A stretch of 64,000 nt of DNA from NCBI RefSeq assembly GCF_026343945.1, contig NZ_JAPKNJ010000001.1:1426001-1490000 (forward strand), written 5' to 3'. This DNA is from Kaistia algarum (GTDB lineage: Bacteria > Pseudomonadota > Alphaproteobacteria > Rhizobiales > Kaistiaceae). The notes under the pieces were generated by a model. That model was given only the letters and a program-made list of their open reading frames with translations. It was not told the DNA's origin and searched no databases. The position numbers and the translations under genes were made by a program. Shown here piece by piece: positions 3,549 through 23,994 of the stretch. Each line of letters opens with the position of its first letter. Within the stretch, counting starts at the first letter, position 1.

Positions 3549-3575
3549 GCTCTAACCCCCATTTCGCCGGAAGAA

Positions 3576-3604
3576 GCCGCCCGCAGCGAGATGCAGCGGG
3601 CGGC
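3576..3604 (-). promoter_or_regulatory. Intercistronic GC-rich hairpin between potF and potG
   Basis: A perfect 9-bp stem, GCCGCCCGC (3576-3584) with GCGGGCGGC (3596-3604), encloses an 11-base loop. It starts 20 bases after the potF stop codon and has no T-tract, so it looks more like an RNA-stability or attenuation element than a full terminator. Similar hairpins follow the three other binding-protein genes in this window. Confidence 0.6.
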
Positions 3605-3624
3605 CGATGATGCGCACGGGCCGA

Positions 3625-4710
3625 CTAGTTGCCGGCGAGGATCTTCTGCCAGGTGTCCGTCAGAGCATCCTGCACATCCTCGCTGTTCGGCGTAGTCGTG
3701 TAGAGATGCGCGAAAGTATCCGGCAGCGGGTAGATCGACGGATCCTTCAGGATCGCCGGGTCGACATATTTCTGGGACTCGAGATTGCCGTTGGGATATT
3801 TCACGAAATTCGTCGCCTTGGCGATGACTTCCGGCTTCTGGATGTAGTTGATGAAAGCGAGAGCCGCCTCGGGGTTAGGCGCATCCTTGGGGATCACCAT
3901 CGAATCCATCCAGAGCAGCGCGCCTTCCTTCGGGATCGAATAATGCACGTCGATGCCGGCCTTGGCGCCGTCCTTGGCCTGCAGAATGTCACCGGAGAAG
4001 GAGAAGACGAGGCAGGCCTCGCCCGTCGCCAGCGGGTTGATCAGCGAGGAGTCGAACTTGCGGATATAGGGGCGGACCTTCATGAGGAGGTCGGCGGCCT
4101 TCTGCAGATCTTCCGGGCTCTTGGAATCGGCAGGAAGGCCGAGATAGTTGAGCGCCGCGGGCATCACGTCTTCGGCCGAGTTCAGCAGATAGATGCCGCA
4201 ATCGGCAAACTTTGCCGCCACTTCCGGCTTGAAGATCATGTCCATGGAATCGACCGGCGCGTTCGGCATGCGCTGGTCGATCTTGACCTTGTCATAGCCG
4301 AGGCCCGTGGTGCCCCACATATAGTTCACGGCGTATTTGTTGTCCGGATCATAGGTCGCGAGGCGCTTGTAAATGTCCGGCCAGGCATATTGGAGGTTCG
4401 GGATCTTGGCCTTGTCGAGTGGCTGGAAGGCGCCGGCCTCGATCAGGATCTGCATGTTGCGATCAGTCGGGACGACGATGTCGTAGCCCGAGCGGCCGGC
4501 ATACATCTTGGCTTCGAGCGTCTCCATCGCGTCATAGACGTCATAGACGACCTTGATGCCGGTTTCCTTGGTGAAATCCTTGAGGATGGAATCGTCGATA
4601 TAGTTCGACCAGTTGTAGATGTGAACTTCCTGGTTCGCAGCCGAGGCAACCAGGGTGCTGCCAGCAACCAGCATTGTCGACAAGGCCAGCCGGCCCAGCA
4701 ATTCCTTCAT
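3625..4710 (-). CDS. potF: Periplasmic putrescine/polyamine-binding protein, PotF-like
   Basis: This 361-residue protein begins with a Sec signal peptide (MKELLGRLALSTMLVAGSTL, cleavage near VASA). The mature part starts with VHIYNWSNYIDDSILKDF, the hallmark of PotD/PotF proteins. LQKAADLLMKVRPYIRKFDSS and the C-terminal half complete the two-lobed fold. I chose the ATG at 4708-4710 because GGAGG lies eight bases upstream; an in-frame GTG two codons earlier is less likely. It captures polyamine in the periplasm for PotGHI. It is first in the operon and divergent from the putrescine-degradation genes, so co-regulation from the roughly 205-base intergenic region is likely. Confidence 0.9.
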   Translation of the reverse strand: MKELLGRLALSTMLVAGSTLVASAANQEVHIYNWSNYIDDSILKDFTKETGIKVVYDVYDAMETLEAKMYAGRSGYDIVVPTDRNMQILIEAGAFQPLDKAKIPNLQYAWPDIYKRLATYDPDNKYAVNYMWGTTGLGYDKVKIDQRMPNAPVDSMDMIFKPEVAAKFADCGIYLLNSAEDVMPAALNYLGLPADSKSPEDLQKAADLLMKVRPYIRKFDSSLINPLATGEACLVFSFSGDILQAKDGAKAGIDVHYSIPKEGALLWMDSMVIPKDAPNPEAALAFINYIQKPEVIAKATNFVKYPNGNLESQKYVDPAILKDPSIYPLPDTFAHLYTTTPNSEDVQDALTDTWQKILAGN

Positions 4711-4915
4711 TCGCACTACCTCCGGAACGGCGCCCGCGGAGATCGATGCGCCCCCGTCAAGCCTGCCTGATGTTCAGGACGTTATGAGGCTTTTTGCGTC
4801 AGCTCAACCGTTTCCTTTTGCGCTGCGACAACTCCGTCCCGCAAGGCGCGGCAGTTGACTTCATCGGCTGGCTGGCGTCACTTCCGAGGTAAAGGCTAGA
4901 GGCCCAGGAGACGCT

Positions 4916-6325
4916 GTGACGAAGCGGAAGAAACCGTTGAAGCCGTTGAAGCCGCTCGAAGATGCGCGGCGCGGCGCCACTTCGCTTGAGGAGGCGCGCG
5001 ACTGGCTGAAGCAACGAGGCATCGAGGATATCGAGTGCGTCGTTCCGGATCAGGCCGGCGTCGCCCGCGGCAAGATGATGCCGGTATCGAAGTTTCTGGC
5101 CGGCGCGACCATGTCGATGCCGGGCTCGATCCTGACCCAGACGATCACCGGCGACTATCCGCCTGACGATGACGACTACAAGAGTGATGAGGCCGACCAG
5201 GACATCTTGTTCGAGCCGGACTTTTCGACGCTCGCCGTCGTGCCATGGGAAACGGACCCGACGGCGCAGCTGATCCATGACGGCTATCACCGCGACGGGC
5301 GGCCGGTGGAAACGGCGCCGCGCCAGGTGCTGCGCCGCATGGTCGAGCTCTATCACCATCAGGGCTGGAACCCGGTGGTGGCGCCGGAAATCGAGTTCTA
5401 TCTCGTCAAGCCCAACCACGACCCGGACTATCAGCTTGAACCGCCGACGGGGCGCTCGGGCCGGCCGGAAGCCGCGCGCCAGTCCTATTCGATCGCCGCG
5501 ATCAACGAGTTCGACGATCTATTCGACGACATCTATGATTTCTCCGAGCAACAGGGCCTCGAGATCGACACGCTGATCCACGAGGAAGGCGCGGCGCAGA
5601 TGGAGATCAACCTCCTGCACGGTGATCCGCTGGCGCTCGCCGATCAGGTGTTCCTGTTCAAGCGCACCATCCGCGAGGCGGCGCTGCGGCACGATATGTA
5701 TGCGACCTTCATGGCCAAGCCGATGTCGCGCGAGCCGGGTTCGGCCATGCATATCCACCAGTCGGTCACCGACCGCGACACGGGCAAGAACATCTTCTCC
5801 GATGCCGATGGCGACCCGACGCCGGAGTTCTTCGCCTTCATTGGCGGCTCGCAGAAATATTTGCCGGCCGTCATGTGCATGCTGGCGCCCTATGTGAACT
5901 CCTATCGCCGGCTGGTCCGCTCTTCCTCGGCGCCGGTGAACACACAATGGGGTTACGACAACCGCACGGTCGGCCTGCGCGTGCCAAATTCGAGTCCGTC
6001 CGGCCGTCGGCTGGAAAACCGTCTGCCGTCATCCGACGCCAATCCCTATCTGGCAATCGCCGCCTCGCTGGCCTGCGGCTATCTCGGCCTGATGGAAGGT
6101 CTGAAGCCCGGCGAGCCGGTGACCGGATCGGCCAATTCCGACGAGATCGACCTGCCACGTTCGATCCTCGAAGCGGTGTCGCTGTTTCAGGAGTGCGAGG
6201 AACTGGTCGAGATCTTCGGTCAGCGCTTCGTGTCGACCTACCGCGCGATCAAGCAGGCCGAATACGAGACGTTCATGCAGGTGATCAGCCCGTGGGAGCG
6301 GGAATTCCTGCTTCTGAACGTCTAG
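4916..6325 (+). CDS. puuA: Glutamine synthetase family protein, gamma-glutamylputrescine synthetase-like
   Basis: This 469-residue enzyme of the GS fold probably ligates glutamate to putrescine using ATP. GTG start at 4916 with AGGAG six bases upstream. Visible motifs are the metal-binding PEIEFYLV (about residue 155), EGAAQMEINLLHGD, the ATP/metal site AMHIHQSV and the YDNRTVGLRVP and NRLPSSDANPYLAIAASLACG blocks of the GS-III-independent PuuA branch. The first residues contain a KPLKPLKPLE repeat encoded by a tandem 9-base unit. The gene leads a plus-strand set with an aminotransferase and an FAD oxidase, opposite potFGHI, which supports a role in putrescine degradation. Substrate specificity is inferred. 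Confidence 0.85.
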   Translation: MTKRKKPLKPLKPLEDARRGATSLEEARDWLKQRGIEDIECVVPDQAGVARGKMMPVSKFLAGATMSMPGSILTQTITGDYPPDDDDYKSDEADQDILFEPDFSTLAVVPWETDPTAQLIHDGYHRDGRPVETAPRQVLRRMVELYHHQGWNPVVAPEIEFYLVKPNHDPDYQLEPPTGRSGRPEAARQSYSIAAINEFDDLFDDIYDFSEQQGLEIDTLIHEEGAAQMEINLLHGDPLALADQVFLFKRTIREAALRHDMYATFMAKPMSREPGSAMHIHQSVTDRDTGKNIFSDADGDPTPEFFAFIGGSQKYLPAVMCMLAPYVNSYRRLVRSSSAPVNTQWGYDNRTVGLRVPNSSPSGRRLENRLPSSDANPYLAIAASLACGYLGLMEGLKPGEPVTGSANSDEIDLPRSILEAVSLFQECEELVEIFGQRFVSTYRAIKQAEYETFMQVISPWEREFLLLNV

Positions 6326-6432
6326 GGCGCTATCGGCTCGGTGTGCGAGCTTTCGGCCTGCGCTTTCGTCGCCGCGTCGAACGGCGATGACGGCGATCAT
6401 CTTCGCTACCGCGACACAGGGCAGTCGGTACC

Positions 6433-7818
6433 TTGACCCAGCTTTCCAACATCACGGCCGATTATCGCGCTCGCGACGCCGCCCATCACATCCATCCCTT
6501 CTCGGACATGAAGGCGCTCAATGCCGAGGGCAGCCGCGTGATCGTGCGCGGCGAGGGCTCCTGGATCTGGGACAGCGACGGCAACCGCATTCTCGATGGC
6601 ATGTCGGGGCTCTGGTGCGTCAATATCGGCCATGGCCGCCCGGAAATCGCCGCGGCGGTCCAGCGCCAGATGGCGGATATTTCCTACTACAACACCTTCT
6701 TCAAGACGACGCATCCGCCGGCGGTGGCGCTCGCCGAGACGCTCGCCCGTCTGGCGCCGCCGCAGTTCAACCACGTCTTCTTCTGCGGTTCCGGCTCGGA
6801 GGCGAACGACACCGTCATCCGCATGGCTCGGCATTATTGGGCGAGCCTCGGCAAGCCGAACAAGAATGTGCTGATCGCGCGCAAGAACGGCTATCACGGC
6901 TCGACCATGGGCGGCGGCAGTCTTGGCGGCATGTCCTCAATCCATTCGCAGGGCGGCTTGCCGATCCCCGGAATCCACCACATCGCCCAGCCCTACTGGT
7001 TCGGCGAAGGCGGCGAGGCGAGCCCCGAGGAATTCGGCATCCTCGCCGCGCGCGAGCTTGAGAAGGCGATCGAGGCGATCGGCGAGGAGAACATCGCAGC
7101 CTTCGTGGCCGAGCCGATCCAGGGCGCGGGAGGCGTCATCATCCCGCCCTCCACCTATTGGCCGGAAATCGCGCGCATATTGAAAGATCGCGAGATCCTG
7201 CTGGTCGCCGACGAGGTCATCACCGGCTTCGGCCGCACCGGCAACTGGTTCGGATGCGAGACCTTCGGCATCGAGGCCGACCTGATGCCGATCGCCAAGG
7301 GCCTTTCCTCCGGCTATCTGCCGATCGGCGGCGTCATGGTTTCGGACAAGGTGGCCGATGTGCTGATCGGGCCGGGCGGCGAATTCAATCACGGCTTCAC
7401 CTATTCCGCCCATCCGGTGACGGCAGCGGCTGCGATCGAGAATTTGCGGATCCTTGAGGCCGAGAATCTGGTCGAGCGGGTGCGGGGCGATATCGGGCCC
7501 TATCTGCAGAAGCTCTGGCTGGCGCTCGGTGACCATCCGCTCGTCGGCGAAGCGCGAATGACCGGATTGATGGGCGCGCTGGAACTGGTGCCGAGCAAGC
7601 CCTCACGCGCGAAGCACTTTCCCGATACGGGCAAGGTCGGCACGATCGCGCGCGATTTCTCGTTCAAGAACGGCCTGGTGATGCGCGCGGTGCGTGACTC
7701 GCTGATCATCGCCCCCCCGCTGACGCTCAGCCATGACGAGGCGGATATCCTGGCCGCGACGGCGCGCAAGACGCTCGACGATACGTGGGCCGAGGTGAAG
7801 CGGCTGGGGCTGGTTTGA
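6433..7818 (+). CDS. Class III aminotransferase, putrescine-pyruvate aminotransferase-like
   Basis: This 461-residue PLP enzyme of fold type I starts at a TTG (6433). The N-terminus carries HHIHPFSDMKALN, typical of SpuC-type aspartate aminotransferase family enzymes. Cofactor motifs are FCGSGSEAND near 120, YHGSTMGGGSLGG, the VADEVITGFGRTG block, and the Schiff-base lysine K289 in PIAKGLSSGYLPIGG. The family moves the amino group of putrescine, cadaverine or beta-alanine to pyruvate. It follows the PuuA-like gene after 107 bases and precedes the oxidase gene. The exact amine donor cannot be read from the sequence. Confidence 0.86.
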   Translation: MTQLSNITADYRARDAAHHIHPFSDMKALNAEGSRVIVRGEGSWIWDSDGNRILDGMSGLWCVNIGHGRPEIAAAVQRQMADISYYNTFFKTTHPPAVALAETLARLAPPQFNHVFFCGSGSEANDTVIRMARHYWASLGKPNKNVLIARKNGYHGSTMGGGSLGGMSSIHSQGGLPIPGIHHIAQPYWFGEGGEASPEEFGILAARELEKAIEAIGEENIAAFVAEPIQGAGGVIIPPSTYWPEIARILKDREILLVADEVITGFGRTGNWFGCETFGIEADLMPIAKGLSSGYLPIGGVMVSDKVADVLIGPGGEFNHGFTYSAHPVTAAAAIENLRILEAENLVERVRGDIGPYLQKLWLALGDHPLVGEARMTGLMGALELVPSKPSRAKHFPDTGKVGTIARDFSFKNGLVMRAVRDSLIIAPPLTLSHDEADILAATARKTLDDTWAEVKRLGLV

Positions 7819-7842
7819 TGCCGGGCCGGGTCTCCGTCGCAT

Positions 7843-7870
7843 TCCCGCCCCCCTTGTGGGGGAGAGGTCC
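7843..7870. repeat. GC-rich palindromic repeat fragment (CCCCCC-TTGT-GGGGGA type)
   Basis: In the short gap between the aminotransferase and oxidase genes lies a C-tract, TTGT and a G-tract followed by GAGAGGTC. The same GGGGGAGAG core recurs at 44578-44600 and its complement at 44671-44692. This is the pattern of short interspersed palindromic repeats common in Rhizobiales genomes. It ends 24 bases before the oxidase start and could fold in the mRNA leader. Confidence 0.5.
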
Positions 7871-7894
7871 CGCCGCCTTCATCGACATCGCCCC

Positions 7895-9169
7895 ATGACC
7901 GACCGACCGCCTTCCTGGTATGAGGCGACGGCCGACGGGAAGCTCGCCTTCCCGCCGCTCGACGGCGACACCAAGGCCCATGTCGCGATCATCGGCGGCG
8001 GCTTTACGGGCTTGTCGGCCGCGCTGCATCTGGCAGAAGCTGGCATCGACACGATCCTGATCGAAGCGAACACCATCGGCTGGGGCGCTTCGGGGCGCAA
8101 TGGCGGCCAGCTTCACACCGGCCAACGCCGCGACCAGGACTGGCTGGAGCGCCATGTCGGGCGGCTGGCGGCGCATGAGCTATGGAACCTTGCCGAGGAG
8201 GCCAAGGCGCTGGTCATGGCGCTGATCGACAGGCACGGCATCGACGCCGAATGGCGCCCCGGCCTGATCGAGGCGGTCCACAAGCCGCGCCTCGTCGACG
8301 AAGAGCGGCACTATGTGGACAAGCTTCGCGACGACTACGCCTATCCGCATGCGGAGTGGATAGAGCGCGACCGCCTGGCCGCGAGGATCGGCACGGGCGA
8401 CTATTATGGCGGGCGGTTCGACCGCACAGCCGGCCATCTCCATCCGCTCAAATTCGCACAGGGCCTCGCCCGCGCCGCATCCAGGGCCGGGGCGCGGCTC
8501 CATGAGCAAACGCCGGCGATCCGTCTCCTCGACGGGGCGACGCCGACGATCGAGACGGCACGCGGGCGCATTCGCGCCGACATCATCGTCCTCGCCGGCA
8601 ACGGCCTCCTCGACGGCATCGATGCAGAGACCGAGACGCGGGCGATGCCGATCAAGAACTACATCCTGACGACGGCGCCGATCGGCGCCGGTGCACCCGG
8701 CGGGCTTATTCCCGGTGGCGAGGCGGTGTCGGATTCGCGCTTCGTCGTCTATTACTGGCGCCCGACGGCGGATGGCCGCATCCTGTTTGGCGGCGGCGAA
8801 ACCTATTCGCGCCGCGACCCCTCCGACATCACCGCGTTCGTGCGCAGGCATCTCCTGAAGATCTATCCGCAACTGGCGGGCGCCCGCATCGACCACGCCT
8901 GGGGCGGCACGCTCGCCGTCACCGTCAATCGGCTGCCGTTCTTGCGCCGGCTAAGTACCGGAGTCTATGCGGCTTCCGGCTATTCGGGTCAGGGCGTCGC
9001 GCTGGCGCCGTTCGGGGGCAAGATCATCGCCGATGCGATCCTCGGTGATCCGGGCCGCCTCGACGCCTTCGCCGCTCTGCCCTGCCCGCGCTTTCCCGGC
9101 GGCAAGCTGCTGCGCTGGCCGGCGCTGGTTGCGGGCATGAGCTGGTACGCGCTCCGGGACCGGATCTGA
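7895..9169 (+). CDS. puuB: FAD-dependent amine oxidoreductase, gamma-glutamylputrescine oxidase-like
   Basis: This is a 424-residue DAO/PuuB-type flavoprotein. The ATG at 7895 (MTDRPPSWYEATA) matches the usual start of the family; open reading continues upstream through the palindromic repeat but is unlikely to be coding. The Rossmann FAD-binding glycine motif HVAIIGGGFTGLSAALHLAEAG lies at about residues 30-50, followed by GWGASGRNGGQLHTGQR, where the flavin ring is held. A C-terminal ASGYSGQGVALAPFGGK block closes the FAD site. The reaction is oxidation of gamma-glutamylputrescine to the aldehyde with release of ammonia and hydrogen peroxide. It converges on the response regulator gene with a seven-base gap. 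Confidence 0.85.
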   Translation: MTDRPPSWYEATADGKLAFPPLDGDTKAHVAIIGGGFTGLSAALHLAEAGIDTILIEANTIGWGASGRNGGQLHTGQRRDQDWLERHVGRLAAHELWNLAEEAKALVMALIDRHGIDAEWRPGLIEAVHKPRLVDEERHYVDKLRDDYAYPHAEWIERDRLAARIGTGDYYGGRFDRTAGHLHPLKFAQGLARAASRAGARLHEQTPAIRLLDGATPTIETARGRIRADIIVLAGNGLLDGIDAETETRAMPIKNYILTTAPIGAGAPGGLIPGGEAVSDSRFVVYYWRPTADGRILFGGGETYSRRDPSDITAFVRRHLLKIYPQLAGARIDHAWGGTLAVTVNRLPFLRRLSTGVYAASGYSGQGVALAPFGGKIIADAILGDPGRLDAFAALPCPRFPGGKLLRWPALVAGMSWYALRDRI

Positions 9170-9176: not shown

Positions 9177-10100
9177 CTACCGCTCCCCGATTGCCGACAG
9201 CGCCACGATCGCGGCTGAGGCGCGGTTTTCGACGCCGAGCTTCTGGTAGATCGTTTCCAGATGCTTGTTCACGGTGCGCGGCGAGAGGCCGAGGATTTCG
9301 CCGATGTCGCGGTTGGATTTTCCGCGCGTGATCCAGAGCAGTACCTCCGCCTCGCGCTGCGTGACGGCGAACTGGCGGCGCAGCGCCGCCTCCTGGCCGC
9401 TGTCATTGTCGCCGGTCAGACGGAACAGGAACTCGTCTTCCCCGGTATTGCCGAGGAAGGAGAGTTGAAGCTGGCGCCCACCCTCGACGATGATCGGCGT
9501 CGGCGGGGAGACGGCGCCGCGCTGACCGGCCGCGACCTTGAGCCAGACGCGAACCGTCTCGGGCAGATGGATGGTACCGCCGCGACTCGGCAGCGCCGCC
9601 TCAAGCAGCTTCGCGGCCTGCGGCGTGCACCAGAGGATCTCGCCGTTGCGATTGGCCGCCAGGAGGAAGCGGCCCGCAGTATCGAGTGCCAATCGGGCGC
9701 TCTGCGCGGTGCGCGCATTGGCGAGGTGGACGCGGATGCGGGCGAGGAGCACGTCGAGCACGATCGGCTTCGTCACATAGTCGACGCCGCCGGCTTCCAG
9801 CCCTTCAAGGATGTGCTCGGTCTCGGAAAGCCCGGTCATGAAGATGATCGGCACATGGCTGAGCGCGGCGTTGGCTTTCAGACGGCGGCAGGTCTCGAAA
9901 CCGTCCATGCCCGGCATGAGCGCATCCATGAGGACGATGTCGGGGGTGATCCGCTCGACGAGAGCCAGCGCCCGCGCCCCCTCGGTCGCGACCAGAACCG
10001 TGGCGCCGGAATGCTCCAGCGCGTCCGTCAGGAAGGAGAGCGTCTCGGGTGAATCGTCAACGACCAGGACGATGTCGCGCGCGCGCGATACTTCAGTCAT
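9177..10100 (-). CDS. Response regulator, REC-PAS-like-LuxR (NarL/FixJ type)
   Basis: This 307-residue regulator starts at the ATG at 10098-10100 (MTEVSRARDIVLVVDD). The REC domain covers about 1-130, with acidic pocket D15/D16 and phospho-acceptor D59 in VLMDALMPGMDG. Residues about 145-235 resemble a PAS fold (RFLLAANRNGEILWCTPQA). A LuxR helix-turn-helix follows (LTQREAEVLLWITRGKSNRDIG-type, ending TVNKHLETIYQKLGVENR). The start overlaps the end of the histidine kinase gene by eight bases, so the two are translationally coupled. A TAC-N10-GTA inverted repeat upstream of urtA is a plausible binding site. The ligand of the PAS-like part is unknown. Confidence 0.85.
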   Translation of the reverse strand: MTEVSRARDIVLVVDDSPETLSFLTDALEHSGATVLVATEGARALALVERITPDIVLMDALMPGMDGFETCRRLKANAALSHVPIIFMTGLSETEHILEGLEAGGVDYVTKPIVLDVLLARIRVHLANARTAQSARLALDTAGRFLLAANRNGEILWCTPQAAKLLEAALPSRGGTIHLPETVRVWLKVAAGQRGAVSPPTPIIVEGGRQLQLSFLGNTGEDEFLFRLTGDNDSGQEAALRRQFAVTQREAEVLLWITRGKSNRDIGEILGLSPRTVNKHLETIYQKLGVENRASAAIVALSAIGER

Positions 10101-13100
10101 GGCTCGCCATCGCCTCCAGGACGGAATGGTACTGCGCGAAATCGAAATTGCGGATGTGGACCCGCATCGCCGCGACGAAGGCCTGATTATCCGCATCCGT
10201 CTCGAGCCGGGCGAGTTTCGCCTCGATCCCCCGGACATAGCCGATATGGCCGAGGTCTAGAAGTTCGCGCACATGGCCGGCGCCCGGACTGCGCAGCGTC
10301 GCGTCCGATTCCGCCTTGGGCGGTACAGACGCCTCGTCGATCCAATCTATGCGCAGCAGAGCCTGAATGCGGTCCAGCAGTTGTCGAACATCGAAAGGCT
10401 TCGGCAGCGCCCCGTCATGAACCGCGTCCTCGGCCTTCTGCGGCTGCATCTCGCCAAGATTGGCGGACAGCATCACGATCGGCGCCCCATGGCCGCTTTC
10501 GCGCAGCCGCGCCGCCAATTCCCATCCCGTCATGCCGGGCATGGATATGTCGAGCAGGAAGATATCCGGCCTTATGTCACCGGTGAGCGCTAGGCAGGAA
10601 GGCCCATCCGGCACGGCGAGCACGATGAAGCCCAGCGGCTCCAGGATCTGGCGCACCAGGTCGCGGTGATCCTCGTCGTCGTCGGCGACGAGGACGGTGC
10701 GCCGCGGCCCCTCATAGCCGAAGATGCGCCGAGGCGGCGCGGGCGAAGGCAGAGGCCGGTCGATGGCGGCGAGCATCAGCCTTACGGTGAAGCGGCTGCC
10801 GATGCCGGGCTCGCTCATGACCGCCAGATCGCCGCCCATGAGCTGCGCCAGCATCTTGGTGATGGTCAGGCCGAGGCCGGTACCGGGCACCAGCTTCGCC
10901 ACGGAGCTGGTGCCGCGCTCGAAGGGCTCGAAGATGCGCTCGATATCCTCGGCCGGAATGCCGGGCCCGGTATCCTCGACCGTGATGGTCGCGATCTGGC
11001 TGCGATAGGCGATCTTCAGCACGACGATGCCGCTCTCGGTGAACTTGATCGCGTTGGACAGCAGGTTGACCAGGATCTGACGCAGCCGTTTCTCGTCGGT
11101 CGCGATCACCTCCGGCAGCCGATCGGGGCGATCGAAGCGGAAGGTGAGCCCCTTCGCTTCTGCCTGGAAGCGGAACATGTCGACGATCTGGTCGAGGAAA
11201 TCGCCAAGCCGCACCTCGTCGCGCTGCAATTGCAGCCGACCCGCCTCGATCCGCGAAATTTCGAGCAGCCCGTCGATCAGGCCGGAGAGATGCTCGGCGC
11301 TGCGGCGAATGACGGAAATGTTGCCGCGGCGGACACGCGGGATCGCCTCGTCGCGCTCCAGGATCTGCGCATAGCCGAAGACCGCGTTGAGAGGCGTGCG
11401 AAGCTCGTGCGAGAGGCCGACGAGATAACGGCTCTTGGCGAGGTTCGCGGCCTCCGCCACCTCCTTGGCGCGCTGCAATTCGGCGTCGGTGCGCTGGTGC
11501 GCGCTGATCTCGCGCAGCAGCAGCGTCGTCTGCCGCGCCGATTCCTCCTGCGCGACATGGCGGCTCTCATTGGCGAGGACGAGGAACCAGGAGGCAATAC
11601 CGGAGACGATCAGGAGGATGAAGAAGGCGGCCCAGAGCGTCTGGCCGATGATGGCGCTATGCGCGCCGCCATAGGAGGTCGCCTGGACGTGGATCAGCAT
11701 AAGGACAAGGCTGATCACGGCCATGAACAAGGTCAATATGCCAAAATACTGGACGATGCGCGGGCTGATCCGGGCGGCGACGCTTCGGGGCAGCACCGCC
11801 GAAACCGCCTCGCTGACCTGGGTCTGCAGCCGTGCATGCGGCTTGCAGAGATCGTGGCAGCGGGCGTCGAGCGAGCAGCAGAGCGAGCAGATCGGCCCCG
11901 AATAGGCCGGGCAATAGGCGCTGTCTTCCGGCTCGAAGAAATGCTCGCAGACCGTGCATTGGATCTCCTTCAGGAGGTGCCAGTGAGCCCGAGGCTTCCT
12001 TGCCAAATAGAAGCGACCGCCCGTCAGCCAGGCGATGGCGGGCGCGGCGACAAGCGAAATGCCGAGCGCGATGAAGGGGGCGAACGCCTTCGCCGTCTCG
12101 CCGAAGAGGCCCACCGCGGCGATCAGCGAGATCGAAGCAGCAATGCCCATACTGCCGACGCCGACCGGGTTGATGTCGTAGAGATGGGCGCGCTTGAACT
12201 CGATGCCTGGAGGAGAGAGGCCGAGCGGCTTGTTGATGGCAAGGTCGGCAACGATCGTGCCGAGCCAGGCGACGGCGACGACCGAGAACAGGCCGAGCGT
12301 CTGCTCAAGCGCGCGATAGATGCCGAGTTCCATCAAGAGCAGCGCGATCGCGACGTTGAACACGAGCCAGACGACGCGGCCCGGATGGCTGTGCGTCAGG
12401 CGCGAGAAGAAGTTCGACCAGGCGAGCGAGCCCGCATAGGCGTTCATCACGTTGATCTTCAATTGCGAGACCACGACGAAGGCGGCGGTGAGGAAGAGTG
12501 CCGCGTCCTGCCAGGGCAACACATAGCCGAAGGCGACGACATACATGCGTGCCGGCTCGGCCGCATGCTCGGCCGGGACGCCATGGCGCAGTGCCAGCAC
12601 CGCGAGGAAGGAGCCGAAGAGAAGCTTCGGCGCGCCGACGATGATCCAGCCGGCGCCGGCGAGCAGCATGGCGAGGCGGCCACGCCAGCCTCCGGGGCCG
12701 GAAGGGGGCACGAAGCGCAGTATATCGACCTGCTCGCCGATCTGCGGCATCAACCCGAGGATGACGGAACAAGAAGCGCCGAAGGCGACGAGGTCGAAGC
12801 TCGACCCACGCGCCGAGGCGAGGCCGGGAAAGGATAGCCATTCCGAGACCGAGCCCCAGTCCTGCCACAGTATGAACCCGACCGGCAGGATGTTGAGGAC
12901 GATCCAGAGCGGCTGTGTCCAGATCTGGAAACGGCTGATCCAGGTGATGCCGTGGGTGACAAGCGGAATGACGGCGGCGGCGGAGAGGATGTAGCCAAGC
13001 CAGATCGGTATACCGAAGGCAAGCTGCAGCGCCGTCGTCATGATCGACGCTTCGATGGCGAAGAGGATGAAGGTGAAGGTGGCGTAGATCAGCGAGGTGA

Positions 13101-13464
13101 TCGTCGAGCCGATATAGCCGAAGCCGGCGCCGCGGGTCAGCAGGTCGATGTCGACGCCGTAGCGCGCGGCATAGCGGGCGATCGGCAGGCCGGTGAGCAG
13201 CAGCACGACGCCGACGACCAGCGTCGCGGCGATGACGTTGACCGTGCCGTGCGACAGGGTGATCGTGCCGCCGATCGCCTCCAATGCCAGGAAGGAGATG
13301 GCGCCGATCGCCGTCTGCGCGACGCGCGGCGACGACCAGCGGCGGGCGCTCTTCGCGGTGAAGCGGAGCGCGTAATCCTCCAGCGTCTGGTTGGCGACCC
13401 AGCGATTATATTCCCGGCGGACCGGAAGAATACGCTGCCGGCCCGCTATGCTGCCTCTGCTCAC
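10093..13464 (-). CDS. Hybrid histidine kinase with NCS1 permease-like sensor domain
   Basis: This 1123-residue protein joins an integral membrane transporter-like domain to a kinase. Residues about 40-490 form roughly 12 hydrophobic segments resembling purine-cytosine permeases (NCS1): LTRGAGFGYIGSTITSLIYA and MPQIGEQVDILRFVPP. A cysteine-rich cluster at about 500-545 (CTVCEHFF, CSLCCSLDARCHDLC) looks like a zinc-binding module. Two further TM segments follow, then HisKA with H686 in GLSHELRTPLN, an HATPase domain (NLLSNAIKF, DTGPGIP, GTGLGLTI) and a receiver with D972 in FLLDISMPG. The last 90 residues are unassigned. The adjacent regulator overlaps its 3' end, and the divergent neighbour is the urea transporter operon, so sensing of urea or a purine-derived nitrogen source is inferred. 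Confidence 0.85.
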   Translation of the reverse strand: MSRGSIAGRQRILPVRREYNRWVANQTLEDYALRFTAKSARRWSSPRVAQTAIGAISFLALEAIGGTITLSHGTVNVIAATLVVGVVLLLTGLPIARYAARYGVDIDLLTRGAGFGYIGSTITSLIYATFTFILFAIEASIMTTALQLAFGIPIWLGYILSAAAVIPLVTHGITWISRFQIWTQPLWIVLNILPVGFILWQDWGSVSEWLSFPGLASARGSSFDLVAFGASCSVILGLMPQIGEQVDILRFVPPSGPGGWRGRLAMLLAGAGWIIVGAPKLLFGSFLAVLALRHGVPAEHAAEPARMYVVAFGYVLPWQDAALFLTAAFVVVSQLKINVMNAYAGSLAWSNFFSRLTHSHPGRVVWLVFNVAIALLLMELGIYRALEQTLGLFSVVAVAWLGTIVADLAINKPLGLSPPGIEFKRAHLYDINPVGVGSMGIAASISLIAAVGLFGETAKAFAPFIALGISLVAAPAIAWLTGGRFYLARKPRAHWHLLKEIQCTVCEHFFEPEDSAYCPAYSGPICSLCCSLDARCHDLCKPHARLQTQVSEAVSAVLPRSVAARISPRIVQYFGILTLFMAVISLVLMLIHVQATSYGGAHSAIIGQTLWAAFFILLIVSGIASWFLVLANESRHVAQEESARQTTLLLREISAHQRTDAELQRAKEVAEAANLAKSRYLVGLSHELRTPLNAVFGYAQILERDEAIPRVRRGNISVIRRSAEHLSGLIDGLLEISRIEAGRLQLQRDEVRLGDFLDQIVDMFRFQAEAKGLTFRFDRPDRLPEVIATDEKRLRQILVNLLSNAIKFTESGIVVLKIAYRSQIATITVEDTGPGIPAEDIERIFEPFERGTSSVAKLVPGTGLGLTITKMLAQLMGGDLAVMSEPGIGSRFTVRLMLAAIDRPLPSPAPPRRIFGYEGPRRTVLVADDDEDHRDLVRQILEPLGFIVLAVPDGPSCLALTGDIRPDIFLLDISMPGMTGWELAARLRESGHGAPIVMLSANLGEMQPQKAEDAVHDGALPKPFDVRQLLDRIQALLRIDWIDEASVPPKAESDATLRSPGAGHVRELLDLGHIGYVRGIEAKLARLETDADNQAFVAAMRVHIRNFDFAQYHSVLEAMASHD

Positions 13465-13748
13465 TCGATAAGCCTGCCTAGGAATTCAGCGAAAACTGTA
13501 GCGATCCGGCGCGCCAGCGCAAGGAAAGACCGGCCCTTCGATGCGTTTTGCCGGATCGGCCCGGCGGCAGTGGGAGCGACCCTACGTCGTTCGACGTATA
13601 TGCTGCGTTGCGAAAACCATCGGACATTCCCCCCGAGCGTCACGGAGTCCCGGCCTCCAATGAGGTCTCCGCGCCGTTTCGATCCGTGAACCAACCGCAA
13701 TCGCCGACCCGCTTCCGGGGCGGCGAGAAGCAACAGGGGGAATTCCAG
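13465..13748. promoter_or_regulatory. Divergent intergenic region between the histidine kinase and urtA
   Basis: This 284-base gap must hold promoters for both the kinase/regulator pair and the urea operon. The clearest element is the inverted repeat at 13583-13598. I found no good sigma-54 -24/-12 pair and no convincing sigma-70 boxes. A short G-rich stretch (CAGGGGGAATTCC) ahead of 13749 can serve as the urtA ribosome site. Confidence 0.5.
13583..13598. promoter_or_regulatory. Inverted repeat TACGTCG-TT-CGACGTA, candidate LuxR-type operator
   Basis: Two perfect 7-base arms are separated by two bases. TAC...GTA ends are typical of sites bound by NarL/FixJ-type regulators. The site is 151 bases upstream of urtA and 119 bases upstream of the kinase start. 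Binding by the neighbouring regulator is inferred from position only. Confidence 0.45.
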
Positions 13749-15041
13749 ATGTTGAACAAGGTGAGCCGTACCATCGGCGCCCTTGCGACGGCGGCCATGA
13801 TCGGCGCCGGCGTAACGAGCGCGATGGCCGCGGAAGACACAATCAAGGTCGGCGTGCTGCATTCGCTCTCGGGCACGATGGCGATTTCCGAGACGACGCT
13901 GAAGGACACCGTTCTCTTCCTCATCGACGAGCAGAACAAGAAGGGCGGCCTTCTCGGCAAGAAGCTCGAGGCCGTCGTCGTCGACCCGGCGTCGAACTGG
14001 CCGCTCTTCGCGGAAAAGGCCCGCGAACTGATCAGCCAGGACAAGGTTGCCGTCGTGTTCGGCTGCTGGACCTCCGTGTCCCGCAAGTCGGTCCTGCCGG
14101 TCTTCAAGGAGTTGAACTCGATCCTGTTCTATCCGGTCCAATATGAGGGACAGGAATCCGAGCGGAACGTGTTCTACACGGGCGCTGCCCCGAACCAGCA
14201 GGCCATTCCCGCCGTCGACTACCTGATGAGCGCCGATGGCGGCTCGGTGAAGCGTTGGGTCCTCGAAGGCACCGACTACGTCTATCCGCGCACGACCAAC
14301 AAGATTCTCGAGGCGTACCTGAAGTCGAAGGGTGTCGCCGAAGAAGATATCATGGTCAACTACACGCCGTTCGGCTTCTCCGACTGGCAGACGGAAGTCG
14401 CGGCGATCAAGAAGTTCGGCTCCGCCGGCAAGAAGACGGCGGTGGTTTCAACCGTTAACGGCGACGCCAACGTTCCCTTCTACAAGGAACTCGGCAACCA
14501 GGGCATCAAGGCGACCGACATTCCGGTCGTGGCCTTCTCGGTCGGCGAAGAAGAACTGGCCGGCATCGACACCAAGCCGCTGGTCGGCCATCTCGCCGCC
14601 TGGAACTACTTCGAATCGATCGATACGCCCGCGAACAAGGCGTTCATCAAGAAGTGGCATGCGTTCATCAAGAACGACAAGCGCACCACCAATGACCCGA
14701 TGGAAGCCACCTATATCGGCTTCAACGCCTGGATCAAGGCCGTGCAGGCTGCCGGCACGACCGATACCGATCCGGTCATCAATGCGCTCATCGGCACCGC
14801 CGTGCCGAACCTCACGGGTGGATACTCGGCCGTCATGCCGAACCACCACATCACCAAGCCGGTCTATATCGGCGAGATCCAGGGCAACGGCCAGCTCGAC
14901 GTGGTGTGGCAGACCAAGGGTCTTCTTCCGGGCGATGCCTGGTCGCCCTACCTGCCGGAATCCAAGAGCCTGATCTCGGATTGGCGGTCGCCGCTCTCCT
15001 GCGGAAACTACGACGTCGCCACCGGAAAGTGCGGCGGCTGA
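13749..15041 (+). CDS. urtA: Urea ABC transporter substrate-binding protein UrtA
   Basis: This 430-residue periplasmic protein has a signal peptide (MLNKVSRTIGALATAAMIGA, cleavage after AMA). The mature N-terminus IKVGVLHSLSGTMAISETTL and the blocks VVVDPASNWPLFAEKARELI, VAVVFGCWTSVSRKSVLPVF and LFYPVQYEGQE are diagnostic of UrtA among branched-chain-type binding proteins. I chose the ATG at 13749 because it gives the signal peptide; upstream in-frame sequence is non-coding. The protein delivers urea to UrtBC. It is the first gene of urtABC-DE, followed by two strong hairpins before urtB. Confidence 0.95.
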   Translation: MLNKVSRTIGALATAAMIGAGVTSAMAAEDTIKVGVLHSLSGTMAISETTLKDTVLFLIDEQNKKGGLLGKKLEAVVVDPASNWPLFAEKARELISQDKVAVVFGCWTSVSRKSVLPVFKELNSILFYPVQYEGQESERNVFYTGAAPNQQAIPAVDYLMSADGGSVKRWVLEGTDYVYPRTTNKILEAYLKSKGVAEEDIMVNYTPFGFSDWQTEVAAIKKFGSAGKKTAVVSTVNGDANVPFYKELGNQGIKATDIPVVAFSVGEEELAGIDTKPLVGHLAAWNYFESIDTPANKAFIKKWHAFIKNDKRTTNDPMEATYIGFNAWIKAVQAAGTTDTDPVINALIGTAVPNLTGGYSAVMPNHHITKPVYIGEIQGNGQLDVVWQTKGLLPGDAWSPYLPESKSLISDWRSPLSCGNYDVATGKCGG

Positions 15042-15116: not shown

Positions 15117-15184
15117 GCAACCCCAGGGCCCCAAGACATCTTGCCGCCCGGACCCTCGTGACGCCTGAACGGACATCGTTGACC

Positions 15185-16807
15185 ATGCGTGTTTCGCTCC
15201 CGTCCCTCTCGACCCTGGCTGCCGCCTTCTTGCTGATCCTGACGGCATTCAACCCGGCTTTCGGCGCGGATATCCGCCCGGAGGTCAACGCGCTCGGCAA
15301 TCCCGGCTATTCGTCGCTGAAGGACGCGATCGCGGCGCTGGCGGCAACCGGCGACCCCGCCGTTCCCGCCTTGCTGCAATCGCTCAGCGATGGCGAGCTT
15401 TACGTCCGCGCGGCCGACAGCGCCGTCTTCAAGGTCACGGAGACCGATGACGGCTACAATTTGCTCGATCCGCTGACGGGCGAGGACGCCGGACCGGCGG
15501 CCGCCGACGAAGTCAGCAAGATCACCGTCAACAATTCCGTCCGCGAGACGATCAGCGCCTCGCTTGGCCTGATGACCCTGCTTTCGCCCGACCCGCAGAA
15601 ACGGCTCGCCGCGGCAGGCGACGTCTACAAGAGCCAGGATCCCAAGCAGATTCCGCTGCTCGATACAGCGATCGCCAAGGAGACCGACAAGAAAGTCACC
15701 GCAGCTCTGCAGATGGCGCGGGCCGCGGCCGTGCTTCGCTCCGATATGGGCGATGCCGACAAGCTGGCTGCCGTCGATGTCATCAGTGCGCGCGGCGACC
15801 AGGATGCCGTCTCGCTGTTGTCCTCGTTCTTTGCCACAGCCCCGGATGGCTCCGCTAAGACGGCGGCGGCTTCCGCGATCTCCACCATCCAGGGGACGTT
15901 GCAGCTCTGGAGCGGCCTACAGAACGTATGGTACGGCGTATCGCTCGGCTCGGTGCTGCTGCTCGCCGCGATCGGCCTGGCCATCACCTTCGGCGTGATG
16001 GGCATCATCAACATGGCGCATGGCGAGATGGTCATGCTCGGCGCCTACACGACCTTCGTCGTGCAGGACATCATCCGCACCTCCTATCCCGAATTGTTCG
16101 ACTGGTCGCTGGCGATCGCCCTGCCGCTCGCCTTCCTCGTTTCGGGCGCCGTCGGGGTGCTGATCGAGCGCTCGGTGATCCGCTTCCTCTATGGCCGGCC
16201 GCTGGAGACGCTGCTCGCGACCTGGGGTATATCGCTGATCCTGCAGCAGGCGGTCCGCACCTATTTCGGCCCGAACAACCGCGAGGTCGGCAACCCGTCC
16301 TGGATGTCCGGCACCTTCGACCTCGGCCATCTCGCCATCACCTATAACCGCATGTGGATCGTGGTCTTCGCGCTCGGCGTCTTCGCCGTGCTGATGCTGG
16401 TACTGAAGCGCACGCCGTTCGGCCTGCAGACCCGAGCGGTGACGCAGAACCGTCCGATGGCCTCCTCGATGGGTATTCGCACGCCTTGGGTCGATGCGAT
16501 GACCTTCGGTCTCGGCTCGGGCATTGCCGGCATCGCCGGGGTCGCACTCAGCCAGATCGACAATGTCAGCCCCAATCTCGGCCAGAGCTACATCATCGAC
16601 AGCTTCATGGTCGTCGTGTTCGGCGGCGTCGGCAATCTCTGGGGCACGCTGGTCGGCGCCTTCACGCTCGGCATCGCCAACAAGTTCCTGGAGCCGTATG
16701 CGGGCGCCGTGCTCGCCAAGATCCTGGTGCTCGTCTTCATCATCCTGTTCATCCAGAAGCGTCCGCGGGGCCTCTTCGCCCTCAAGGGCCGGTCGGTGGA
16801 GGCGTGA
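15185..16807 (+). CDS. urtB: Urea ABC transporter permease UrtB with N-terminal periplasmic domain
   Basis: This is a 540-residue protein. A signal peptide (MRVSLPSLSTLAAAFLLILT, cleavage near AFG) is followed by about 210 residues of soluble, helical, HEAT-like sequence (AIAALAATGDPAVPALLQSL and similar repeats). From about residue 245 comes a LivH-type permease with about eight TM segments and the motifs GVMGIINMAHGEMVMLGAYT and GVGNLWGTLVGAFTLG. The ATG at 15185 is preferred over an upstream GTG because it begins the signal peptide. The long N-terminal part is common in proteobacterial UrtB proteins, but its role is unknown. Confidence 0.94.
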   Translation: MRVSLPSLSTLAAAFLLILTAFNPAFGADIRPEVNALGNPGYSSLKDAIAALAATGDPAVPALLQSLSDGELYVRAADSAVFKVTETDDGYNLLDPLTGEDAGPAAADEVSKITVNNSVRETISASLGLMTLLSPDPQKRLAAAGDVYKSQDPKQIPLLDTAIAKETDKKVTAALQMARAAAVLRSDMGDADKLAAVDVISARGDQDAVSLLSSFFATAPDGSAKTAAASAISTIQGTLQLWSGLQNVWYGVSLGSVLLLAAIGLAITFGVMGIINMAHGEMVMLGAYTTFVVQDIIRTSYPELFDWSLAIALPLAFLVSGAVGVLIERSVIRFLYGRPLETLLATWGISLILQQAVRTYFGPNNREVGNPSWMSGTFDLGHLAITYNRMWIVVFALGVFAVLMLVLKRTPFGLQTRAVTQNRPMASSMGIRTPWVDAMTFGLGSGIAGIAGVALSQIDNVSPNLGQSYIIDSFMVVVFGGVGNLWGTLVGAFTLGIANKFLEPYAGAVLAKILVLVFIILFIQKRPRGLFALKGRSVEA

Positions 16808-16809: not shown

Positions 16810-16992
16810 ATGATTGCGCGGGCGTTCACCTATATCGATCTGCCGCCCAAGGTTTCGCCGCTGGTCTGGTGCGGGCTGAACGAGCCGGAACCGAGCCCGG
16901 CCTCCGTCCCGACGCCGGTCGGATCGAAGCCGGGTGCGAGAATCGGATCCGGCGATGACAGGCAACAGTCGGCCCGGGGGCCCCAGTCATGA
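16810..16992 (+). CDS. Small ORF between urtB and urtC, unknown
   Basis: A 60-codon frame (MIARAFTYIDLPPKVSPLVW...) starts three bases after the urtB stop and has GGAGG seven bases before its ATG. Its TGA overlaps the urtC ATG (ATGA, 16989-16992). Ribosome entry and coupling to urtC therefore look real. The product has one mildly hydrophobic start and a Pro/Ser/Gly-rich, low-complexity tail, with no TM segment and no recognised domain. It may be a coupling peptide or a chance frame in a spacer. UrtB and UrtC genes are usually adjacent. Confidence 0.35.
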   Translation: MIARAFTYIDLPPKVSPLVWCGLNEPEPSPASVPTPVGSKPGARIGSGDDRQQSARGPQS

Positions 16993-18149
16993 TCACCGCC
17001 TTCTTCTTTCGTGCCCTCGACGGCAAGACCCTAATCGTATTGGCGATCCTGATCGGCATCGGTATTGCGCTGCCGCTGCTCAGCCTCACCGACCCATCCT
17101 TCCCGCTGCACATTCCGACCTACGCCATTGCGCTGATCGGCAAATATCTCTGCTATGCGCTGCTCGCGCTTTCGGTCGACCTGGTATGGGGCTATTGCGG
17201 CATTCTCTCCCTCGGCCATGCCGCGTTCTTCGCCCTCGGCGGCTACGCCATGGGCATGTATCTGATGCGCCAAATCGGCACACGCGGCGTTTATGCCAAC
17301 CCGGTCCTGCCGGATTTCATGGTCTTCCTGAACTGGCAGGAGCTGCCCTGGTTCTGGCACGGCTTCGACATGTTCTGGTTCGCGGCGCTCATGGTGCTGC
17401 TGGCGCCGGGGCTGCTCGCCTTCGTCTTCGGCTGGTTCGCCTTCCGCTCGCGCGTCACCGGCGTCTATCTCTCGATCATCACCCAGGCGATGACCTATGC
17501 GCTGCTGCTCGCCTTCTTCCGCAACGACATGGGCTTCGGCGGCAATAACGGCCTGACCGACTTCAAGGACATCCTCGGCTTCAACATCCAGGCCCCCGAG
17601 ACGCGCGGTGCGCTGTTCTTCGCTTCGGCGCTCGCTTTGGCGCTCGGCTTCCTAATCTGCCGCGCCGTCATCTCGTCGAAATTCGGCAAGGTGCTGATTG
17701 CCGTCCGCGACGCGGAGAGCCGGACGCGCTTCATCGGCTACCGTGTCGAAGGATACAAGCTGGTCGTTTTTGTCCTCTCCGCCATGATGGCAGGCGTCGC
17801 CGGATCGCTCTACGTGCCGCAGATCGGCATCATCAATCCGGGCGAATTCGCCCCTGCCAATTCGATCGAGGCGGTCATATGGGTCGCCGTCGGGGGGCGC
17901 GGCACATTGATCGGCCCGATCGTCGGCGCGCTGCTCGTGAACTTCGGCAAGACGTGGTTCACGAGCGGCGTGCTAGCCGAATACTGGCTGTTCGTCCTCG
18001 GCGGGCTGTTCGTCGCCGTCACGCTGTTCCTGCCAAAGGGCGTCGTCGGCACGATCCTCGCGCGTAAAGCCAGAAAGCCTGACGAGGCGAAGTCCCCGCC
18101 GGAACCAACGCCGATCCAGGCGAGCCAGGCTGCGGAGGAAGGGGCATGA
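16989..18149 (+). CDS. urtC: Urea ABC transporter permease UrtC
   Basis: This 386-residue LivM-type permease has about ten TM segments. Diagnostic blocks are VDLVWGYCGILSLGHAAFFALGGYAMGMYL, SIITQAMTYALLLAFFRNDMGFGGNNGLTDFK and the C-terminal GVAGSLYVPQIGIINPGEF. It pairs with UrtB to form the urea channel. It overlaps the preceding small ORF by four bases and the downstream urtD by four bases (ATGA at 18146-18149), so expression is tightly coupled. The C-terminal tail after residue 360 is charged and Pro-rich, and varies between species. Confidence 0.94.
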   Translation: MITAFFFRALDGKTLIVLAILIGIGIALPLLSLTDPSFPLHIPTYAIALIGKYLCYALLALSVDLVWGYCGILSLGHAAFFALGGYAMGMYLMRQIGTRGVYANPVLPDFMVFLNWQELPWFWHGFDMFWFAALMVLLAPGLLAFVFGWFAFRSRVTGVYLSIITQAMTYALLLAFFRNDMGFGGNNGLTDFKDILGFNIQAPETRGALFFASALALALGFLICRAVISSKFGKVLIAVRDAESRTRFIGYRVEGYKLVVFVLSAMMAGVAGSLYVPQIGIINPGEFAPANSIEAVIWVAVGGRGTLIGPIVGALLVNFGKTWFTSGVLAEYWLFVLGGLFVAVTLFLPKGVVGTILARKARKPDEAKSPPEPTPIQASQAAEEGA

Positions 18150-18934
18150 GCGAGAAAGCCAAGGGTGACGAAAAGGCGAAGGGCCACGAGAAGGCTAAGA
18201 ACTCGCTGCTCTATCTCGACGGCGTCTCGGTTTCCTTCGACGGCTTCAAGGCGCTCCGCGGCCTGTCGCTGATCATCGAGCCAGGAGAGATGCGCGCTAT
18301 CATCGGCCCGAACGGCGCCGGCAAGACGACGATGATGGATGTGATCACCGGCAAGACCAAGCCGGACACGGGCGACGTCTATTTCGCTGGCGACACCGAT
18401 CTGACGCGCATGGACGAGGCCTCGATCGCCTCGCTCGGCATCGGCCGCAAGTTCCAGAAGCCGACGGTCTTCGAGAGCCACACCGTCTGGAACAATATCG
18501 ACTTGGCGCTGGCCGGCGTGCGGAAGCCCTTCGCGACCTTGTTCCATCGCACCAGCGCGCGGGAGACCGCCCGCATCGAGGAGATTCTCGCGACGATACG
18601 ACTGACCGACAAGAAGGATTGGCTCGCCGCCAACCTCTCGCATGGCCAGAAGCAATGGCTCGAGATCGGGATGCTGCTGGCGCAGGAGCCGCAGCTCCTG
18701 CTCGTCGACGAGCCGGTCGCCGGCATGACCGATGCCGAAACGCGCGAGACGGCCTCGCTGCTGCGCGAGATCGCCAAGACGAAATCCGTCGTCGTCGTCG
18801 AACACGACATGTCCTTCGTCCGCGACCTCGATGTGAAGGTGACCGTGCTTCACCAGGGCTCGGTGCTGTCGGAGGGCACGCTGGACGCGGTGTCTGCCGA
18901 CCCGACCGTCATCGAAGTCTATCTGGGACGATGA
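18146..18934 (+). CDS. urtD: Urea ABC transporter ATP-binding protein UrtD
   Basis: This 262-residue ATPase has Walker A GPNGAGKTT (near residue 55), signature LSHGQKQWLEIGMLL, Walker B LLLVDEPVAGMTD and the switch His in VVVEHDMSFVRDL. The N-terminus has a lysine-rich repeat (EKAKGDEKAKGHEKAK) not needed for the fold, encoded by near-tandem 12-15 base units. The LSHGQKQW form of the signature is characteristic of UrtD. It energises UrtBC together with UrtE. The next gene starts 107 bases downstream. Confidence 0.94.
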   Translation: MSEKAKGDEKAKGHEKAKNSLLYLDGVSVSFDGFKALRGLSLIIEPGEMRAIIGPNGAGKTTMMDVITGKTKPDTGDVYFAGDTDLTRMDEASIASLGIGRKFQKPTVFESHTVWNNIDLALAGVRKPFATLFHRTSARETARIEEILATIRLTDKKDWLAANLSHGQKQWLEIGMLLAQEPQLLLVDEPVAGMTDAETRETASLLREIAKTKSVVVVEHDMSFVRDLDVKVTVLHQGSVLSEGTLDAVSADPTVIEVYLGR

Positions 18935-19575: not shown

Positions 19576-20271
19576 ATGCTCGAAGCGAAGAATGTCGATC
19601 TCTATTACGGCGCGGCGCAAGCGTTGCGGAGCGTGTCGATCAAGGCGGAGACGGGCAAGGTCACCTGCCTGATGGGCCGCAACGGCGTCGGCAAGACCAG
19701 CCTGCTCCGGGCCATCGTCGGGCAGAAGCCGATCGCGTCCGGCGAGATCCTGTGGGAGGGCAAAGTGCTCGGCCGCTCGCCGGCCTATGATCGCGCCAAG
19801 GCCGGCATCGCCTATGTGCCGCAGGGCCGCGAGATATTCCCGCTGCTGACCGTGCAGGAAAATCTGGAAACCGGCTATGCGCCGCTTTCCCGCAAGGACC
19901 GCTACATCCCCGACTATATCTTCGATCTCTTCCCGGTCTTGAAGGACATGCTCGGCCGGCGCGGCGGCGACCTTTCCGGTGGCCAGCAGCAGCAATTAGC
20001 AATCGGACGCGCGCTCGTCACGCGCCCGCGGCTGCTCGTGCTTGACGAGCCGACCGAGGGAATCCAACCCTCGATCATCAAGGATATCGGCCGGGCTATT
20101 CAATGGCTGCGCGAACAGGGAACGATGGCGATCCTGCTGGTCGAGCAATATTTCGACTTTGCGCATGAACTCGCCGACACCTTCGCCGTGATGGATCGCG
20201 GCGAAGTCGTCGCATCGGGAACGCAGGCCGAGATGGGCAGCGAGACCGTCCGGGCTCACCTCACGGTGTGA
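19576..20271 (+). CDS. urtE: Urea ABC transporter ATP-binding protein UrtE
   Basis: This 231-residue ATPase has Walker A GRNGVGKTS, signature LSGGQQQQLAIGRAL, Walker B LLVLDEPTEGIQPS and ILLVEQYFDFA, where the usual switch His is Gln-like, as normal in the LivF/UrtE branch. The start LEAKNVDLYYGAAQALRSVS matches UrtE. It is the last gene of the urea operon and overlaps the converging small minus-strand gene by 11 bases. Confidence 0.94.
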   Translation: MLEAKNVDLYYGAAQALRSVSIKAETGKVTCLMGRNGVGKTSLLRAIVGQKPIASGEILWEGKVLGRSPAYDRAKAGIAYVPQGREIFPLLTVQENLETGYAPLSRKDRYIPDYIFDLFPVLKDMLGRRGGDLSGGQQQQLAIGRALVTRPRLLVLDEPTEGIQPSIIKDIGRAIQWLREQGTMAILLVEQYFDFAHELADTFAVMDRGEVVASGTQAEMGSETVRAHLTV

Positions 20272-23987: not shown

Positions 23988-23994
23988 CCATCTC

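Follow-up and report, generated by a model that had tools for sequence, protein, structure and literature searches.

What does a histidine kinase respond to when it carries a transporter domain and is encoded back to back with a urea uptake operon? This question is raised by a locus of Kaistia algarum within a contiguous stretch of 64,000 bp (referred to as the window). The kinase gene (10093–13464, minus strand) codes for a protein of 1,123 amino acids and has a GTG start codon, with most aligned homologs starting about five codons further downstream. From the N-terminus, the protein comprises a transporter-like sensor domain with predicted NCS1/LeuT fold (residues ~25–500; 11965–13392), an eight-cysteine module with the spacing C-x2-C-x11-C-x7-C-x2-CC-x5-C-x3-C (residues 503–540; 11845–11958), two further transmembrane (TM) helices leading into the kinase, as judged from hydrophobicity and model helices (residues ~575–628; 11581–11742), a HisKA domain with the phospho-acceptor His686 in the motif SHELRTPLN (residues 677–742; 11239–11436; PF00512), a HATPase_c domain (residues 789–898; 10771–11100; PF02518), and a receiver domain with Asp972 (residues 924–1034; 10363–10695; PF00072), all on the minus strand. 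The latter three are the only Pfam matches in the protein, and since HisKA, HATPase_c, receiver, and catalytic residues are all present, it is a hybrid sensor histidine kinase. His686 and Asp972 are invariant among 25 aligned sequences. The order of cysteine cluster, HisKA/HATPase, and receiver behind the transporter domain, as given in a preliminary description of the locus, was confirmed by the Pfam matches and the invariant cysteines. The genome contains a single kinase of this type. An assignment of its C-terminal tail as HPt domain was rejected (no Pfam match, and no His of the tail is invariant in the 25-row alignment), as was a 723-amino-acid open reading frame on the plus strand (10666–12837), which is an antisense frame of the conserved kinase gene.

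The N-terminal half of the kinase has no Pfam match even at an E-value of 10, does not reach the gathering score of PF02133, and has no credible match in NCBIfam; SSF is absent from the Pfam matches of the protein. Its affiliation was assessed by comparison with standalone permeases. The sensor domain shares 31% identity (E = 3.4e-33) with one such permease, itself a member of PF02133, and alignment by hhalign of 29 sensors against 22 PF02133-type permeases gave E = 2.3e-42 over 443 columns. A profile of sensors only (A2) did not reach CodB in a PDB sequence search and matched Escherichia coli CodB weakly in hhalign (probability 11.5), the combined sensor-plus-permease profile reached CodB in the PDB search at E = 5.7e-5, and hmmsearch with a permease-only profile (A4) returned no matches. 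The structures nearest to an AlphaFold2 model of the domain (pLDDT 83.4, pTM 0.85; input alignment of 78 sequences including 21 permeases) are Mhp1 and CodB, with SSS chains such as DUR3 and CHT1 ranking at least 9 Z units below CodB. The DUR3 urea transporters (9vim, 9j7d) of the SSS family belong to another family than the sensor domain, ranked well below CodB and Mhp1, and carry no kinase. In several homologs the sensor domain is called purine-cytosine permease-like in the automatic JGI annotation. Profile homology and modeled fold agree that the domain is of the NCS1 type and not of the SSS type. The earlier reading of residues ~40–490 as purine-cytosine permease-like, and its distinction from the SSS/SLC5-type domain of CbrA, are thereby upheld, with somewhat wider limits of the domain. 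The nearest non-kinase kin seen was a standalone NCS1 relative in locus L086 (7949–11168), which adjoins a frame resembling, by eye, a two-domain nitrilase-type hydrolase and also lies near a further UrtA-like binding protein; it is a possible candidate for an amide or nitrile transporter.

The eight cysteines that follow the sensor domain are invariant in all 117 sensors. Comparison of the module with cysteine-rich and zinc-finger chains yielded weak matches only (E = 0.28 and 4.2), and we regard it as putatively zinc-binding. The linker between sensor domain and kinase has no match in Pfam or NCBIfam, libraries which may contain no STAC model, and we know of no other transporter-kinase with a linker of this kind. 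Directly downstream of the kinase, a response regulator is encoded (9177–10100, minus strand) whose Pfam receiver and GerE helix-turn-helix domains, separated by a middle region of ~110 amino acids, identify it as LuxR/FixJ-type. Its ATG at position 10100 overlaps the kinase stop codon by 8 nt, which suggests that both genes are translationally coupled.

A complete urtABCDE operon is encoded divergently from the kinase, as the preliminary description had proposed, and all five products exceed their NCBIfam cut-offs: the urea-type binding protein gene urtA (13749–15041, plus strand as all following genes; TIGR03407, 542.6 bits at a cut-off of 492.75; start codon picked by eye ahead of the signal peptide), the permease genes urtB (15158–16807; TIGR03409, 441.1 bits) and urtC (16989–18149; TIGR03408, 446.9 bits), and the ATPase genes urtD (18146–18934; TIGR03411, 384.9 bits) and urtE (19576–20271; TIGR03410, 342.9 bits). 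The genome encodes one UrtA at E = 1e-100. Its urease is located ~870 kb away, and the kinase locus itself thus carries transport genes only. No AmiE-type aliphatic amidase was found in the genome at E = 1e-40 and no FmdA at E = 1e-30, the latter in a search that also matched no control genome; the FmdA formamidase family does match in loci L052 and L083. Between positions 8000 and 24500, Rfam gave nothing at gathering thresholds. UrtB has an additional N-terminal region of ~250 residues, which matches HEAT repeats weakly. Convergent to the regulator gene is a putrescine/amine-degradation-like cluster (4916–9169) with a class III aminotransferase, an FAD oxidoreductase, and a glutamine-synthetase-family enzyme related to gamma-glutamylputrescine synthetase that scores below the cut-off of that family; the urt operon is followed by genes for a LacI regulator, a sugar ABC transporter, and a BglA/alpha-glucosidase-type enzyme (22717–29049).

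A set of 349 genomes drawn evenly from the Pseudomonadota was searched for the sensor domain, which was found in 47 of them (including that of the window), with some weak matches. Excluding the window, 45 matches were strong (E = 1e-160 or better), and 38 of these loci were retrieved with up to 20 kb of sequence, one (L085) being a contig of 4.8 kb. The urtA gene is present in 33 of the 38 loci and divergent from the kinase in 30 of these 33. Two loci contain urease (L076, L084) and two formamidase (L082, L083) without urt. According to coordinate tables, UrtA and kinase are neighbors in six of the seven strong matches not retrieved, and the remaining one (G138) is at a contig edge. In a second set of close relatives, consisting of the best 80 of at least 597 loci (the named loci, among them Rhizobium, Bradyrhizobium, Devosia, Aureimonas, and Roseibium), urtA is divergent from the kinase in 76. 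In 34 of the 38 phylum loci a full-length match to the regulator follows the kinase immediately, and in 2 more the match is confined to the receiver; all 80 named loci have a regulator match of at least 60 bits. The neighborhood seen in the window hence recurs in other genomes, and the linkage of the kinase to urt and urea genes is conserved across the Pseudomonadota. Neither of the two outcomes named beforehand as refuting the initial reading, a different transporter family or homologs unlinked to urea genes, was therefore observed. Locus L126 carries kinase and regulator with no urtA within 9 kb. In L082 and L083 (~2638–6587) the kinase lacks a receiver (885 and 894 amino acids, respectively), and behind it are encoded a separate receiver-plus-kinase protein and a formamidase; neither urt nor the usual regulator was found beside these kinases.

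The recurrent neighbors define two main locus types, one with formamidase (amide type; 756 bits at a cut-off of 500) and one with urease subunits and accessory proteins. Further recurrent clusters are an aliphatic amidase (716 bits, cut-off 427) and an RPWMISH-domain protein, and less frequent neighbors include a ClpB-like ATPase, a MetX-like hydrolase, an aldehyde dehydrogenase (cluster c76, for which an assignment as standalone permease was rejected), and a further binding protein. No purine genes occur among the annotated recurrent clusters, which cover all but the small clusters c6, c7, c9, and c116. A tree of 38 kinases (obtained in a rapid search with SH-aLRT as sole support measure; L085, as well as sequences that contained stops or had short ends, entered neither the tree nor the residue counts below) contained 25 amide-type and 10 urease-type rows, the mixed locus L056, and L051 and the window with urt only. 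It indicates four changes between the amide and urease types and groups the window protein with the urease clade L048–L051 (support 99). Four genomes have two kinases, of which G273, G185, and G252 have one beside each locus type and G118 has both beside formamidase.

A dyad search of the regions upstream of the kinase genes revealed a palindrome, ATACGTN6ACGTAT or a variant with ACGC/GCGT. In the window it reads TACGTCGTTCGACGTA (13583–13598), lies ~150 bp before the urtA ATG, and is the predicted regulator site of urtABCDE. Of 122 loci examined, 113 have a urtA match and enough upstream sequence, and 110 of these have at least 10 of 12 palindrome positions upstream of urtA (scored as the better of the two variants), compared to 5 of 113 after shuffling. 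By source, these comprise 31 of the 34 rows from the phylum sample, in which the window is counted (L064, L065, and L070 have no good site), all 76 named rows, and three own-family loci. This count is partly circular, as many of the kinase-upstream regions used for discovery are also urtA-upstream regions. Less circular are the following comparisons. Of 34 cases with kinase and urtA on different contigs or separated by at least 900 bp, 33 have the site at urtA; in G027, for example, kinase and regulator are on one contig and urtABCDE on another, and the palindrome occurs at urtA and is absent within 18 kb around the kinase. The site is absent in front of urtA in all 20 kinase-less genomes, for which the best score was 9. 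Of 20 second urtA copies from genomes with the kinase, 2 carry it, those of G252 and G046 (the latter weak with 10/12), and both of these genomes have a urease-type kinase without adjacent urt. Among own-family genomes, all 14 kinase-bearing genomes searched have the palindrome at urtA and none of 12 kinase-less ones does; the search did not cover G021, whose kinase gene match is broken and which has no UrtA match. The site is at urtA in all 24 kinase-bearing genomes searched (these 14, which were not selected by site, and ten chosen for good sites), 9 of which have one or more further copies. Of 22 kinase-less genomes, five contain any copy, never at urtA, although G003 among these has no UrtA match and G004 and G005 have sub-cut-off matches only. 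In the K. algarum genome the exact core occurs once, at the urtA promoter; this uniqueness proves little because a reversed control pattern also occurs once, and it is the position that is informative.

Second exact palindromes were seen inside amide-type loci of G081, G173, and G273 (L068:11845, L067:11886, and L072:16589, respectively, as calculated from genome coordinates) and may mark a second regulated promoter for amidase genes. Candidate sigma-54-like sites in the region separating kinase and urtA were set aside; a loose pattern found them in only 23 of 117 upstream regions. In the recognition helix of the regulator, residue 324 tends to follow the palindrome variant: with T..A sites it is Asn (49) or Thr (6), with C..G sites Asp (16), Thr (3), Asn (3), or His (1), and 14 rows have mixed site classes. 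As the clades are not independent, this correlation is suggestive only.

The former substrate site provides clues to the ligand. The TM6 break of CodB contacts the substrate; the sensors have a five-residue insertion in TM6, with Gln241, Glu244, and Gln245 invariant. The nucleobase is held in CodB by Gln105 and Trp108 (numbering from PMC9379551 and E. coli codB). In the sensors, Gln105 is replaced by Thr131 in all 117 sequences and Trp108 by Leu134 (60) or Phe134 (57), and the window protein, with T131 and L134, lacks both the base-site Gln and the base-stacking Trp. In TM8, which was mapped by an ungapped by-eye reading of the Y-x7-N motif and not by program alignment, Asn280 of CodB (Mhp1 N318) is retained as Asn338 in 117 of 117 sensors, and the sodium-site residues Thr278/Thr279 correspond to Lys336/Ile337 throughout. 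Conservation of the substrate site, a check suggested at the outset, was found for T131, E138, E244, Q245, and N338, each invariant in 117 of 117. Two further positions, 134 and 340, were tallied in 79 of the 80 named loci. The pair is Leu/Met wherever urease is in reach (25 loci), as it is in the window protein, and Phe/Thr wherever formamidase is present (19 loci); loci with neither have Leu/Met (30) or Phe/Thr (5). Phe/Thr is likewise found in all 25 amide-type rows of the phylum sample, but the three other urease clades retain Phe134, and the Leu/Met pair therefore represents a change in a single lineage. At position 303, every urease-clade row has Asp, as do 4 of 25 amide rows, and at position 402 all members of the urease clades except L080 show a change. 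The window protein is amide-like at both of these positions (E303, G402), which tend to differ between the two types; its ligand range could therefore be ancestral or broader.

We consider it likely that kinase and regulator form a two-component system in which the NCS1-fold domain senses urea in K. algarum, and short-chain amides in many relatives, and activates urt via the regulator. Urea, or formamide and acetamide-like amides in many relatives, would occupy the former substrate site, and the ligand-driven change between transporter conformations would be relayed to HisKA by the cysteine module and the final pair of TM helices. The product of the overlapping gene, the LuxR-type regulator, would then receive the phosphate, bind ATACGTN6ACGTAT upstream of urtA, and switch on, rather than repress, urtABCDE; elsewhere it may also switch on urease or formamidase/amidase genes. 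For CbrA, a chimera with the CrbS domain showed that transport is dispensable for signaling (PMC5715377), and its uptake is driven by protons rather than sodium (PMC7096432); both findings fit a sensor that has lost its sodium site. Points against this reading are the distant urease, the amide-like positions 303 and 402 of the window protein, the three phylum loci without a good palindrome, the absence of urtA from L126, and the regulator not found in L082 and L083.

A first alternative, which we hold to be possible though doubtful, is a true transceptor, whose sensor domain would import urea or amides in addition to signaling. Residues invariant in sensors and permeases alike are retained (e.g., E138, N338, N341, D407, and E422), and CbrA transports histidine driven by the proton gradient rather than by sodium and without conserved sodium-site residues (PMC7096432). 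Loss of the sodium-site threonines in all sensors argues against import, as does the dedicated ABC importer adjoining the kinase; the Lys336/Ile337 pair is no proof of lost transport, however, because standalone permeases carry Arg at this site. Extended to the phylum, the transceptor reading would give a tentative picture, also rather less than probable, of a Pseudomonadota-wide class of NCS1-fold transceptor kinases that import and signal via the cysteine-module linker. Their nucleobase site would have been rebuilt for urea and amides (Thr and Leu/Phe in TM3, a polar TM6 insertion, and Lys in the sodium site), with about four switches of locus type and presumably of ligand.

It is unlikely that the domain has no ligand of its own and that the kinase instead monitors transporter flux or nitrogen status by contacting UrtABCDE. 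The frequent co-occurrence with urt is compatible with such a contact, and co-sensing by permeases is known (mentioned in PMC5715377), but the kinases of L076, L084, L082, and L083 are found with urease or formamidase and no adjacent urt, and the invariance of the former substrate-site residues is expected of a binding site in use. Very improbable is a sensor of a nucleobase or purine breakdown product such as allantoin or hydantoin, with urea uptake as downstream purine-nitrogen response: the structurally characterized NCS1 transporters transport cytosine or hydantoins (PMC9379551, PMC4195764) and standalone relatives are automatically named allantoin or cytosine permeases, but the recurrent annotated neighbors are urt, urease, formamidase, and amidase, the base-holding residues are replaced and the TM6 insertion has its own invariant residues, and an NCS1 transporter reported for metformin, which is not a nucleobase (PMC13390362), indicates that the fold is not tied to bases. 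Of the two ligands first suggested, urea is thus favored by the neighbors and the palindrome, and a purine-derived compound is disfavored by the lack of annotated purine neighbors and the replacement of Gln105 and Trp108.

Fusion of a transporter domain to a kinase is already known from the SLC5/STAC kinases CbrA (histidine), CrbS/CrbR (acetate), and RpuS/RpuR (pyruvate), of which CrbS is a hybrid kinase with a LuxR-type regulator and an inverted-repeat target in acetate-use promoters (PMC13022988, PMC7096432, PMC5715377, PMC9100948). The urea-linked kinase resembles them in having a LeuT-fold transporter domain fused to a histidine kinase, and CrbS in particular in its hybrid structure, LuxR-type regulator, and predicted palindromic promoter site. 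It differs by its NCS1 instead of SLC5 domain, by the eight-cysteine module and two TM helices apparently in the place of STAC, and by its predicted ligand and regulon, with linkage to urea/amide genes and another palindrome. With CodB and Mhp1 (PMC9379551, PMC4195764) it shares the fold over the whole domain and the TM8 Asn (N338) but differs in the replaced TM3 Gln and Trp, the Lys in place of the sodium-site Thr, the TM6 insertion, and the kinase fusion. An amide/urea operon, fmdCABDEF, is described in Methylophilus methylotrophus, for which the available part of the source names one putative positive regulator and no kinase (PMC10781810). Among the matches listed in a search of the open-access literature, which leaves subscription journals mostly outside its scope, no description of this kinase, of another NCS1-fused kinase, or of the palindrome was found.

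If the proposed function is correct, many bacteria would possess a dedicated membrane sensor for urea and small amides, complete with regulator and DNA site, and the control of urea and formamide use would become directly testable. The results also suggest that a further transporter family besides SLC5 has given rise to sensors, with a linker of another kind, and the NCS1-kinase would then offer an independent case for how a transporter fold drives a kinase.
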